A DNA stretch of 64,000 nt from Sulfolobus acidocaldarius SUSAZ (GTDB taxonomy: Archaea > Thermoproteota > Thermoprotei_A > Sulfolobales > Sulfolobaceae). Both the position numbers and the translations under genes were made by a program. The DNA is taken from positions 1,768,621-1,832,620 of the forward strand of contig CP006977.1 in NCBI GenBank assembly GCA_000508305.1. The letters are read 5' to 3'. Below are positions 1 to 5,287 of this stretch, piece by piece (the first letter of the stretch is position 1; each line of letters begins with the position of its first letter). The notes under the pieces were generated by a model. The model had not been told where the DNA came from and searched no databases. It saw nothing but the letters and a program-made list of their open reading frames with translations.

Positions 1-14
1 AGTTACCCACTGTT

Positions 15-1478
15 ATGTCGCAAGTCTTACATAGGCTAAATGCGTTACCATTTAGAAAGATCACTGTAGAGGAGAGTGGAAAAGAAAAGAGGAGTAGCGC
101 AGAGAGGGTGGGTAACAGTAGTGCTAGGATAGAGCTCCACCCGGAGGAATTTCCAAAAGTATCCTTTGCAACAGTTACAAGTATTGACTGGTATGGACCA
201 TCGCCCTATGGTAAGAGATATGTTGCAAACATCAATGGGGAGGAAGAACAGGAGGGGAAGATAGATGATTTAGACCTGAAAGTTGATGTGGCTGAGTGTT
301 TCGGCATTGCCTGTGACAAGGTTAAAGCCTCGGTGAAGATAAGGAGTAAGAAGGCACCAGTATCTATCAAGGGATTAATAGAGTGGTCTCTACTGAGTAA
401 GACTTTGATAAGGGAGTTGGAGAATTCGACAATAGGTAAAGCCTTAACTACGAATGAGGCGTGGATTGCTTTCCAGAGAAAGGTCATCATACCAAATGTT
501 GTTCCAAGGGTAGAAAAAATGAGAACATTGGATGAATTAAAGGCTGTGGATAAGGGTGGGCTAGTTATTTTTCCTAGAGTAGGTTGTTATAATAACGTAT
601 ACCAAGTTGATTTCTCCTCCATGTATCCATCATTAATAGTTAAATACAATATATCTGCTGAGACAGTGGATAAGTGTAATGATGTGGAGACTGAAATAGG
701 TCATATGATTTGCCTAAAGGAGAAGGGAATAGTGCCAGAAGCATTGGAGTGGTTAGTTAATAGAAAAGAGGAGTTAAAGAAAGTCGATAAGGAGAGAGCA
801 GAGGCGATAAAGTGGATTCTTGTTGCCTCATTCGGTTACCTAGGGTATAGGAACTCTAAATTTGGTAAAATAGAGGCTTATGAGTTAGTTACATATTTTG
901 CACGGAAGACATTAAGGAGAACAATAGACTTAGCTGGGGAACATGGGCTGGAGGTTTTACATGGAATTATAGACTCATTGATAGTTAGAGGAGATAGGAT
1001 TAGGGAATTTATTGACCACACACAGCAAGTTACAGGGTTAAAACTGAAAGAAGAGAAAATGAAATGGGTAATCCTATTTAATGCTAAAGACGGAACCCCA
1101 TATCCAATGAGGTATTTGGGAAAATTAGAGAACGGAGAGATGAAGGTTAAGGGGTTAATCAGGAAAAATATGCCAAACATTGTTAAGGAATTTCTTGAGG
1201 ACGTGGTTGAGGTAACGGGTAAAGCTGACACATGTGAGCAGATTGATGTAGGTGAAATTGACGTTATTTACAGGAGATACAGACAACGGGTTGCTCATGC
1301 AGAACCAAAGGATTATGTATTATGGGTCAAGAGAAAACCTTATGTGAGGGGGGTAAGGGGATTTTATGACGCGAGGAAGGGTTATAAAGGAAGAGATGTC
1401 TTCTATTATCTAGACTATTTAGAGAGAAGTTATGAGGTGATACTCTCTGCTCTCAACGGGATTCTCGACCTTAGATAG
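15..1478 (+). CDS. polB2: Family B DNA polymerase PolB2 (Dpo2) with disrupted active site
   Basis: This is the polymerase core of a family B enzyme without a 3'-5' exonuclease domain; at 487 residues it is far shorter than the usual 750-900. Motif A is intact (DFSSMYPS, D199). The motif B region reads ASFGYLGY (about 271-278). Motif C, normally YxDTDS, reads HGIIDSLI, so the first catalytic Asp is Ile318 and only D320 remains. This matches the archaeal PolB2 group, which is described as having a disrupted active site and being linked to DNA-damage tolerance. The frame is open to the left edge of the window (from base 3), so the true start may lie outside. It is followed immediately by a RecA-like gene, which suggests one transcription unit for repair or lesion bypass. 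Confidence 0.88.
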   Translation: MSQVLHRLNALPFRKITVEESGKEKRSSAERVGNSSARIELHPEEFPKVSFATVTSIDWYGPSPYGKRYVANINGEEEQEGKIDDLDLKVDVAECFGIACDKVKASVKIRSKKAPVSIKGLIEWSLLSKTLIRELENSTIGKALTTNEAWIAFQRKVIIPNVVPRVEKMRTLDELKAVDKGGLVIFPRVGCYNNVYQVDFSSMYPSLIVKYNISAETVDKCNDVETEIGHMICLKEKGIVPEALEWLVNRKEELKKVDKERAEAIKWILVASFGYLGYRNSKFGKIEAYELVTYFARKTLRRTIDLAGEHGLEVLHGIIDSLIVRGDRIREFIDHTQQVTGLKLKEEKMKWVILFNAKDGTPYPMRYLGKLENGEMKVKGLIRKNMPNIVKEFLEDVVEVTGKADTCEQIDVGEIDVIYRRYRQRVAHAEPKDYVLWVKRKPYVRGVRGFYDARKGYKGRDVFYYLDYLERSYEVILSALNGILDLR

Positions 1479-2019
1479 GATAATACAAAGAGACGAGATA
1501 GTTGAGTTCTACTCTACAGACCACAATTTACTCTATGAGTTCTATCATAGGGTAATAGTCGTCTCCTCTCCCGTGAAAGTGATCATAGTAGGGGAAAGAG
1601 GAGGGCTAAATCCCTTACTAATAGAGAGATTTAAGAGAATATTTCAGAGAGACGGAGATATTTATATCAGAAGAGCATTTAAGGTAGAGGATGTTAGACC
1701 AACCATTGAGGAGATGGGAGACGAGTTTATACTAATTAACCCTTATCATCACGGTAAGAACTACACAGAGATTGTGGCAGGGATAAGAAAGACTAAGGGC
1801 AGAAAATTCTTGTTCAGTAGTATGGATAGAGAGGTTAATGGATCATTATTTGGCTCCCATTCTGTACACTCTATGATTAGACTTGAAAGAGGCGAAAGAG
1901 GATTTAAGGCTATAGTGGTCAAGAGTGTTATACTAAAAGAGGTGGAAATACCCTTCGGATACTGGGAAATTTTCGGCAAAGATGAGGGAGAGGGCTTAAT
2001 GAAGTGGATTGTGACTTGA
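1447..2019 (+). CDS. RecA/RadA-fold paralogue lacking Walker A, PolB2 partner
   Basis: The first conventional start is GTG at 1573, giving 148 residues. The same frame is open upstream to a TGA at 1438-1440 and encodes STGFSTLDRII, which resembles the RadA opening STG..LD.LL. I therefore prefer a start near CTG 1447, six bases after GAGGTGA (1434-1440). The rest follows the RadA layout: a beta strand and helix (VKVIIVGERGG), an IYIRRAF segment like RadA NIYVARAF, an aspartate-poor Walker B region (FILINPYHHG), and a C-terminal stretch similar to RadA's HS...LERG.....VVKS. Where RadA has the GxxxxGKT loop this protein has EFYSTDHNLLYEF, so ATP binding is probably lost. The gene overlaps the polymerase 3' end. 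Identity as an inactive RecA paralogue is inference from fold-like motifs. Confidence 0.68.
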   Translation: MLSTGFSTLDRIIQRDEIVEFYSTDHNLLYEFYHRVIVVSSPVKVIIVGERGGLNPLLIERFKRIFQRDGDIYIRRAFKVEDVRPTIEEMGDEFILINPYHHGKNYTEIVAGIRKTKGRKFLFSSMDREVNGSLFGSHSVHSMIRLERGERGFKAIVVKSVILKEVEIPFGYWEIFGKDEGEGLMKWIVT

Positions 2020-2845: not shown

Positions 2846-3634
2846 ATGAGTAGTGACGTTGATGTTATAGTAGAAAAGATTATTAATAATCCTAGACTGT
2901 TAGATGCGATTTTTAACAGATTCTATGAGAGAGTTAAGGAAGAATTAATAATTAAGAGAATTGAGGAATTAGAAAAGAAAATTAGTGAACTCGTAAATAA
3001 TAGTAATAGAATCTGGGAAAGCATAGAAAAACAAAGAGAAGAGACCAAAAGAATCTGGGAAAGCATACAAGCAACACAAAACGAAATAAAGACTCTACAA
3101 GAAGACAACAAGAAAATCTGGGAAAGCATAGAAAAACAAAGAGAAGAGACCAAAAGAATCTGGGAAAGCATACAAGCAACACAAAACGAAATAAAGGGGA
3201 TTAGAGAGGAAAATACAAAAATATGGAAAGCAATTGAGAGAATGAATGTCTCCTTCTCTGCATTCACCTCTAGAAGCGGTCACTACATCGAGAGGACTAT
3301 TATGAATTTGTATAAGGAGGCATTAGAATTGCACGGAATTGATTCCTCTAAAGTAACTCATGGCGTTATTGAGGATACTGAAGGGGTAGTTCATAAAGGT
3401 AGGAAGTATGAGATAGACTTCTATGAAACTAACGGCGTTATTTATCTATTCGAAATAAAGAATCATGCAGATGAAGGGGCAATAGAACAATTAGAGATCA
3501 GGGAGAAAATATTAAGCTCTATATATAAAAAACCAATAAAGAAATTTCTTGTAGCTAACTCAATAGAAAAAAGAATTAAGAGAAGAGCTGAGAGGATAGG
3601 GATCACCGTAATCGCTGGTATAGTAGTCGAATAA
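2846..3634 (+). CDS. Coiled-coil protein with C-terminal PD-(D/E)XK-like domain (DUF3782-type)
   Basis: This is a 262-residue protein. Residues about 35-135 are a long coiled coil built from IWESI..QREETKR and IQATQNEIK units repeated with a 35-residue period. Residues about 140-262 form a nuclease-like fold with the order D191, then E203-I-K205 (D...ExK), as in PD-(D/E)XK enzymes. Such coiled-coil plus nuclease-fold proteins (DUF3782 type) are common in Sulfolobales; their substrate is unknown. It stands alone, preceded by about 800 non-coding bases and followed by a TnpB element. The coiled coil has expanded recently by exact DNA duplication (see the repeat entry). The nuclease assignment rests on the motif only. 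Confidence 0.75.
   Translation: MSSDVDVIVEKIINNPRLLDAIFNRFYERVKEELIIKRIEELEKKISELVNNSNRIWESIEKQREETKRIWESIQATQNEIKTLQEDNKKIWESIEKQREETKRIWESIQATQNEIKGIREENTKIWKAIERMNVSFSAFTSRSGHYIERTIMNLYKEALELHGIDSSKVTHGVIEDTEGVVHKGRKYEIDFYETNGVIYLFEIKNHADEGAIEQLEIREKILSSIYKKPIKKFLVANSIEKRIKRRAERIGITVIAGIVVE
3010..3196 (+). repeat. 82-bp perfect tandem duplication inside the coiled-coil gene
   Basis: Bases 3010-3091 and 3115-3196 are identical over 82 bases, offset by 105 bases (35 codons, so in frame). The intervening 23 bases differ. The exact identity at the DNA level points to recent duplication that lengthens the coiled coil by five heptads. Confidence 0.93.
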
Positions 3635-3811: not shown

Positions 3812-5287
3812 CTGACCCACTCCCCGCCCTAAAGGGCGAGGATTCTGCTAGGGTCTAAGGCGTTACTCCCCTTTAAGGGAGATACTCCATTAGACGTAAC
3901 AAGAAAGGAAAGAGGTTTTTTCAACACGTCAATAATCTTCTTCACGCCTAGTTTCATAATGTTCAACGCTCCGTTAACGTCACTATGAAGCTTATGGCCA
4001 AAAGGACAGTTTACCACCCCCCTAGGCCTTCTATCAACCTTAACCCCATGATAAGCACAGAAACGTGACGTATTATACTCAACAACTAGAAACGTCTTTA
4101 TACCATATTCATAAAGCCTATTCACTACAGCGTCTATCAACTTACCATAAGACCATATGTTCACAGTAAACTTGTTACCCTTGTCCTGAGAGATGAAGTA
4201 AGGATAACCCAAATACACCGTTGAAACACCAAGATCCCACAAGGACTTAGCCAAGTGAGAGGCTAACGTTCTGTAATAATGAAGAAGCCTACGGTACAAC
4301 TTTGCGAATAATCTTTTCCTTTCCCTCAACACTTCTTCCCTAGCTTTCCCTTCTTGAATCTTTTCAACCTCACTCCTCAACTTGTCAAGCTCGGCAATCT
4401 TCTTCTGAAAATAGAAGTAATCGCTCTTAATGAGAGAACCACGGTAAAAGAGTATTGTACCATCATTAACAACAACAGTAGCCAACATGTTTACACCAAG
4501 GTCAATTGAGGCTACCTTCTCGCCTTTGGGCTTCTCAACTTGAATCCTTTCTCTTTCGCCGTGAATGATAAGAGAGTCCTTCATTGGCTTACCACTCTTC
4601 TTTGCAGTTATTCTACCAACGTCAACGGGAATGTGGGCATAAAACTTGTTACCTTCAATGTGGATTTCTAGCCTACCTTGTGCACCAAACCACCTTAACC
4701 TACCTTCAAAGGGTATTTCAATTTTCCAATCCTTCAAAAAGAGAGTGTGTTTTTCCTCATCAACCTCATAGCGGTCTTGCCTAATGACTAGGATTAACTT
4801 CCTCTTTCCTCCCTCTTTCCAATAGCCTGGCACTGAAACGTGGTCCACGAATGGCGGTTTCTGTTTCAGTAACGAGAAGAAGGATGACCAAGCTTCGTTG
4901 TTCTTCTGTAGTACTGCTTGAGTGTTAACTCCTAGAACTTTCTTATACTTCTCGTAATACTTTTTCCACGTGTTCTTTAGGTCAACTTTCTTTTCTTGAA
5001 AGAATTGTTGCCTTCTTTCGTAGTTTACTTCATTCCACAGCTTAGCAGATGAGTCTGCCAACTTGCTCAATTTCCTCTGTTGATGCCCATTAGGGAAGAG
5101 CCTCATAACGACTGTTCTGACGCTTCCCTCTGGTATTGCGGGAGTAATCGGCTCCCGCTCCTCATCTTTAGGAAGTTCACCAGAAGGAAGCGTCATAAGG
5201 GGAAAATTGTTTTTATTGATTAAAAAATTTGGGTTTATTTTTATAGTAACTTACCCCGCCTTAAAAGGCGAGGTTTGTAATTCTTTT
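3812..5287 (-). mobile_element. IS200/IS605-type element carrying only tnpB
   Basis: The element is read on the minus strand. The right end carries the hairpin CCTCGCCC-TTTA-GGGCGGGG followed by AGTGGGTCAG (ending at 3812). The left end carries AAAAGAAT-TACAAA, then CCTCGCC-TTTTAA-GGCGGGG (5287 down to about 5250). Subterminal hairpins without inverted repeats or target duplication are typical of the IS200/IS605 superfamily. No TnpA (HUH Y1 transposase) gene is present, so movement would need TnpA in trans. The base before the proposed left end belongs to TTGAT. The boundary is inferred by alignment to the seven short relatives in this window; an alternative left end lies at 5276, after TTAC. 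Confidence 0.72.
3829..5196 (-). CDS. tnpB: TnpB/OrfB RNA-guided nuclease-family protein
   Basis: The protein is 455 residues. It has an N-terminal helix-turn-helix and wedge region (RTVVMRLFPNGHQQRKL), then a RuvC-like core with SIDLGVNMLAT (catalytic D232) and HSDVNGALNI (D406). In the region of the RuvC-II glutamate this family has VYLGYPYFISQ, with no acidic residue at the usual place; E373 (VVEYNTS) is the nearest candidate. The zinc ribbon is reduced to C380-x2-H383 and C397-x3-H401 rather than four cysteines. The stop codon lies in the loop of the right-end hairpin, as expected if the 3' end also encodes the omega RNA. A TATA-like ACTATAAAAATAAA lies upstream on the minus strand. Activity cannot be judged from sequence. 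Confidence 0.9.
   Translation of the reverse strand: MTLPSGELPKDEEREPITPAIPEGSVRTVVMRLFPNGHQQRKLSKLADSSAKLWNEVNYERRQQFFQEKKVDLKNTWKKYYEKYKKVLGVNTQAVLQKNNEAWSSFFSLLKQKPPFVDHVSVPGYWKEGGKRKLILVIRQDRYEVDEEKHTLFLKDWKIEIPFEGRLRWFGAQGRLEIHIEGNKFYAHIPVDVGRITAKKSGKPMKDSLIIHGERERIQVEKPKGEKVASIDLGVNMLATVVVNDGTILFYRGSLIKSDYFYFQKKIAELDKLRSEVEKIQEGKAREEVLRERKRLFAKLYRRLLHYYRTLASHLAKSLWDLGVSTVYLGYPYFISQDKGNKFTVNIWSYGKLIDAVVNRLYEYGIKTFLVVEYNTSRFCAYHGVKVDRRPRGVVNCPFGHKLHSDVNGALNIMKLGVKKIIDVLKKPLSFLVTSNGVSPLKGSNALDPSRILAL

Follow-up and report, generated by a model that had tools for sequence, protein, structure and literature searches.

The closest described counterpart of the locus analyzed here is the archaeal PolB2-PPB2-iRadA system. 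Makarova et al. (2014; PMC4104785) described the operon with its inactivated RadA and arCOG07300, and Timinskas (2025; PMC11791011) named PPB2 and iRadA, modeled a heteropentamer, and likened this heteropentamer to the Pol V mutasome. The complex is a computed model, and the cited papers, including PMC11791011, demonstrate no physical interaction in any species. In S. islandicus and S. solfataricus the polymerase, also called Dpo2, has no exonuclease activity, extends mismatches, and shows primer extension similar to that of the replicase Dpo1; the S. islandicus enzyme, a robust polymerase, has the motif C sequence IID, and Dpo2 is needed for damage-induced (targeted) mutagenesis (PMC8764526, PMC11791011). 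Single deletion of polB2 (Saci_2156) in S. acidocaldarius leaves UV sensitivity normal, with effects mainly when polB3 is also deleted, and a triple polymerase deletion leaves the spontaneous mutation rate unchanged (PMC7785828). Damage-inducible expression of the operon has been reported for relatives (PMC11791011). In bacteria, a damage-induced mutagenesis cassette includes ImuA, a homologue of RecA that lacks Walker motifs (PMC6511836).

The locus and its conservation

The window, i.e. the whole stretch of 64,000 nucleotides that was analyzed, begins within polB2. The genes for PPB2, PolB2, and iRadA form a single colinear cluster in that order, the first of them lying outside the window:

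L002:6134-6373, immediately upstream of polB2, outside the window: PPB2, a small helical protein of 79 aa (MGRTQPSFT...)
1..1478, + strand: 3' part of polB2 (Dpo2), residues 90-581 of 581 (whole gene L002:6354-8099, 581 aa)
1447..2019, + strand: iRadA, 190 aa, RadA/Rad51 fold without Walker A, predicted start CTG at 1447-1449, overlapping polB2 by 32 bases

We are highly confident that the locus represents the PolB2 mutasome operon (PPB2-PolB2-iRadA), presumably damage-inducible, in a Sulfolobus species near S. acidocaldarius. The operon proteins are 95-96% identical to those of a sister species in the same genus. What can look like a striking pair of a dead polymerase and a dead recombinase is thus part of a published lesion-bypass system, and the pairing is not new (Makarova 2014; Timinskas 2025).

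Across the family, iRadA has PolB2 nearby in 29 of 31 genomes, and whole-genome searches found PolB2, PPB2, and iRadA alike to be missing from the other two (G014 and G030). Since the neighborhood is the same in 29 genomes and both genes are absent from the remaining two, the pairing of PolB2 with iRadA is not due to chance. PPB2, polB2, and iRadA are kept together or lost together. G014 and G030 are near-complete Sulfolobaceae genomes whose sister species have the trio, an apparent joint loss of the mutasome.

Downstream of iRadA, about 800 bases (2020-2845) contain no ORF of at least 60 aa. They are followed by a 262-aa ORF (2846-3634) in which a 105-base tandem repeat (2.1 copies) encodes a coiled coil; its C-terminal part resembles DUF3782 (E 8.6e-5, just short of the Pfam cut-off) and is likely nuclease-like. 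On the minus strand, 3829-5196 encodes a TnpB/OrfB-type protein of the IS605 family (Pfam OrfB_IS605, Cas12f1-like_TNB).

PolB2 and its catalytic residues

The polB2 frame (3..1478) continues past the left edge of the window. The gene begins 268 bases upstream of it, so the ATG at position 15 encodes an internal methionine. Three comparisons place PolB2 among the B-family DNA polymerases: Pfam (DNA_pol_B, E 1.5e-13, matching the polymerase domain only, residues 248-404), a PDB profile search (Pyrobaculum PolB 5mdn, E 3e-36), and the fold of its model (pLDDT 88.5; B-family match in Foldseek, E 3e-29). The following elements bear on its activity:

549..554, + strand: DK motif, D273-K274, invariant in 29 relatives
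609..611, + strand: catalytic Asp of motif A, D293, invariant
804..857, + strand: motif B / finger helix, residues 358-375, AIKWILVASFGYLGYRNS, nearly all invariant
960..977, + strand: motif C, HGIIDS (H410-G-I412-I413-D414-S), with I412 at 966-968 and D414 at 972-974

The usual YxDTDS of motif C has become HGIIDS, with Ile (I412) in place of the first Asp and the second Asp (D414) retained. The first-pass annotation had correctly noticed the missing first Asp, from which it took PolB2 to be catalytically inactive, and this conclusion is not supported. It corresponds to a reading in which a dead PolB2, together with a dead RecA paralogue, serves only as a scaffold while another polymerase carries out the lesion bypass, like ImuB with DnaE2. 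The altered motif C speaks for such a reading, as do the classification of PolB2 as inactivated between 2008 and 2014 (PMC4104785) and the small effect of deleting polB2 alone in S. acidocaldarius (PMC7785828). It is nevertheless very improbable: D293, D414, and D273-K274 are conserved in all 29 relatives aligned, the finger helix is likewise conserved, and orthologues with the same motif, such as the IID-bearing Dpo2 of S. islandicus, are robust polymerases (PMC8764526). According to the Dpo2 authors, metal is coordinated by the second Asp of motif C (PMC8764526, PMC11791011), which is the residue retained here. Among the 29 relatives, 53 of 86 invariant columns lie within residues 273-420. 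PolB2 is very probably not dead; the missing first Asp of motif C is no proof that a B-family polymerase is inactive.

The fold of iRadA

The frame of the gene overlapping the 3' end of polB2 is open from 1441 to 2019. An AlphaFold2 model of its product, built with 28 family sequences, reached a pLDDT of 87 and a pTM of 0.87. In Foldseek it gave 105 structure matches at E <= 0.001, and its closest solved structures were DMC1, RAD51, RAD51C complexes, and RecA (best E 1.2e-7). A RadA-like fold without a Walker A loop, which the first-pass annotation had proposed for this gene, was therefore borne out by structure prediction, with a Rad51/RecA-like fold and no Walker A motif in any of the 28 iRadA sequences. 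iRadA has no N-terminal domain, its 190 aa beginning at the core, and two parts of it are of particular interest:

1510..1533, + strand: YSTDHNLL, at the position of the P-loop after the first strand; GxxxxGK[ST] is absent
1993..2007, + strand: GLMKW at the C-terminus, conserved; possible PCNA-binding tail, a weak PIP-like motif without Gln

Descent from RadA could be recognized by fold comparison only. We had also sought sequence-level proof of it, and dropped that line: iRadA had no match in Pfam and NCBIfam searches or in a profile search against the PDB, and hhalign against RadA gave a probability of 3.6%. Makarova et al. (2014; PMC4104785) likewise found the relation to RadA undetectable by sequence in the most decayed iRadA group.

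With no ATPase site, the RecA-like part looks like a scaffold, and in view of the model it probably is one. All 28 sequences have the C-terminal GLxxW, some with Y replacing the W or I replacing the L, and clamp motifs have been reported in iRadA tails (PMC11791011). The tail may bind PCNA and so aid a distributive enzyme. In another genome (G008, L040 3571-4127), the iRadA frame is present as two overlapping pieces in different frames, residues 4-68 and 68-190, which could be explained by a frameshift, by recoding, or by an error in the sequence.

The start of iRadA

ORF callers that accept ATG, GTG, and TTG as starts place the second gene at 1573-2019, giving 148 aa, no overlap with polB2, and a loss of 42 residues. 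Upstream of the GTG at 1573, as far as the preceding in-frame stop (TGA at 1438), the iRadA frame has none of these three start codons, and homology to other iRadA sequences begins at 1447, at a CTG codon. Two further features are relevant:

1434..1441, + strand: Shine-Dalgarno site GAGGTGAT inside the 3' end of polB2, an 8-base match to the 3' end of the genome's own 16S rRNA, ending 5 bases before the CTG
1573..1575, + strand: GTG taken as the iRadA start by ORF callers, an internal Val codon that is GTA, GTT, or GTC in relatives

The CTG aligns with the ATG of relatives (CTG CTC TCA ACG GGA TTC here, ATG CTG AAA ACC GGT TTT in G013), and species differences in the 31 codons from the polB2 stop to GTG 1573 are mostly at third positions. 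The octamer GAGGTGAT occurs three times in the window against 2.1 expected; it is not rare there, so its weight comes from its position and conservation. Because there is no usual start, a Shine-Dalgarno site lies 5 bases upstream, the ATG of relatives is in register, and the codons before GTG 1573 change mostly at third positions, iRadA is most likely initiated at the CTG.

CTG occupies the start position in the window genome, in the sister species, and in one further genome (G002). A fourth (G005) has ACG there, with a TTG 16 codons further upstream as an alternative. The remaining relatives have ATG, GTG, or TTG at this position or a few codons away. All four genomes with unusual starts fall inside one clade of six (support 100/99), in which, unlike elsewhere, polB2 extends 17-29 bases beyond the codon of the TGF motif of iRadA. 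We consider it likely that iRadA in this clade uses a near-cognate start (CTG three times, ACG once) served by a strong Shine-Dalgarno site in the lengthened polB2, that the weak start and translational coupling would keep the ratio of iRadA to PolB2 low, and that the usual ORF call is 42 residues short.

The main alternative to a CTG start is a +1 frameshift from polB2 within the overlap (1441-1476), which would make iRadA the C-terminal part of a PolB2-iRadA fusion. The frames do overlap, the usual start codon is absent, and in six related genomes polB2 passes the iRadA start region. Against this, in the majority of colinear relatives an ATG, GTG, or TTG stands at that site beside the polB2 stop, so iRadA is normally initiated separately; an ATG is retained in two of the six genomes with overlap; and a strong Shine-Dalgarno site lies 5 bases before the CTG. 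We give frameshifting a very low probability. The absence of ATG, GTG, and TTG before 1573 could also point to decay of iRadA into a pseudogene in this species, yielding the 148-aa fragment or no product, but its 190 codons are free of stops, it is 95% identical to its counterpart in the sister species and 65% to that in a third genome, the codons before the GTG vary mostly at third positions, and the GTG itself is an internal Val codon. Decay is accordingly extremely unlikely.

Initiation at the CTG, our preferred reading, seems to be a new detail. Searches of the open-access literature for non-AUG starts in Sulfolobus and for Saci_2155/2157 returned nothing on the start of the iRadA gene. 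It has a practical side as well, as an iRadA from this genus that is cloned or tagged according to the ORF callers would be a RecA core minus its first strand and first two helices.

PPB2 and the damage-response box

PPB2 was invisible to the first-pass annotation, as it lies outside the window. Its N-terminal MGRT is invariant in 21 PPB2 sequences, and the PPB2 gene of the window genome also has an ANTTTC box. Of 25 linked PPB2 genes, 24 have such a box no more than 110 bases upstream, and for 17 its position is -52 to -54, compared with a chance rate of about 1 in 5 for having a box by a rough estimate from base composition. ANTTTC is the element that Orc1-2 binds in the response to DNA damage (PMC9738581).

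In four genomes of genus g10, taken as Metallosphaera, PPB2 is unlinked from polB2-iRadA (L088 of G010, L089 of G025, L090 of G027, and L091 of G022, near position 1500 in each). These genomes first seemed to have no PPB2, and the idea that PPB2 is dispensable was dropped when a whole-genome profile search located the gene elsewhere. Each of the four unlinked genes is preceded by its own ANTTTC...CTCTC box, which speaks for joint movement of the PPB2 gene and its damage promoter. An unlinked PPB2 with its own damage box is independent evidence for PPB2 acting in the same damage response. We also tried the extended box, ANTTTC-RNT-CTCTC, as a search pattern for the regulon. It was too unspecific: the genome has 8 such sites, the reversed pattern gives 3, and only the site at PPB2 looked promoter-like.

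A putative mechanism

We propose that DNA damage would activate Orc1-2, which would bind the ANTTTC box and switch on PPB2-polB2-iRadA, as has been shown in relatives. PolB2 would then act as an active B-family polymerase, distributive and free of exonuclease, and, without proofreading, would extend primers ending in a mismatch or at a lesion, as has been shown for its orthologues; induction, polymerase activity, and the role in mutagenesis are all known from relatives and would apply here by analogy. In the published model (PMC11791011), iRadA, a RadA derivative that has lost ATP binding, docks onto a PolB2 loop as the next RadA subunit would in a filament, and a PPB2 trimer puts its MGRT arm between PolB2 and iRadA, touching the DK motif of PolB2. 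The GLxxW tail of iRadA may tether this predicted complex to PCNA. Translation of iRadA would be coupled to that of polB2, with ribosomes at the Shine-Dalgarno site inside the 3' end of polB2 and, in this lineage, a CTG start.

Comparison with known mutasomes

The locus shares with S. islandicus and the other archaeal PolB2-PPB2-iRadA systems (PMC4104785, PMC11791011) the three components, the gene order, the IID of motif C, the MGRT arm, the absence of Walker A, and the damage box. It differs from them in the predicted CTG start of iRadA in place of ATG, GTG, or TTG, in a polB2 lengthened into iRadA, and in a C-terminal iRadA motif without the Gln of the canonical PCNA-binding box.

The first-pass annotation had drawn its archaeal parallel, a mutasome of dead scaffold parts, to the ImuA-ImuB-DnaE2 systems. 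The half of it that stands is the coupling of an ATPase-less RecA-fold protein to an unusual polymerase, since ImuA and iRadA are both RecA-fold proteins without Walker motifs; the dead polymerase does not. The parallel is right but not new, because the PolB2-PPB2-iRadA mutasome had been published and compared with Pol V in 2025 (PMC11791011). ImuB is a dead Y-family polymerase, with synthesis carried out by DnaE2, whereas PolB2 is a B-family enzyme that keeps its catalytic Asp residues and has active orthologues. We therefore rejected membership of the locus in the ImuA/ImuB-DnaE2 group.

To our knowledge, eukaryotic Pol zeta has no iRadA or PPB2 subunit and lies outside the PolB2 group. It is a functional analogue of PolB2, being, as PMC8764526 argues, a proofreading-free B-family extender in lesion bypass.

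Bacterial Pol V (UmuC, a UmuD' dimer, and RecA) resembles the archaeal system in combining a polymerase with a small accessory protein that forms oligomers and with a RecA-fold subunit that, in the model, docks as a filament neighbor (PMC11791011). Pol V is built from the Y-family polymerase UmuC and the cell's active, ATPase-competent RecA, whereas the locus described here pairs a B-family polymerase with a dedicated RadA relative, iRadA, that has no Walker A motif and looks like a non-ATPase.
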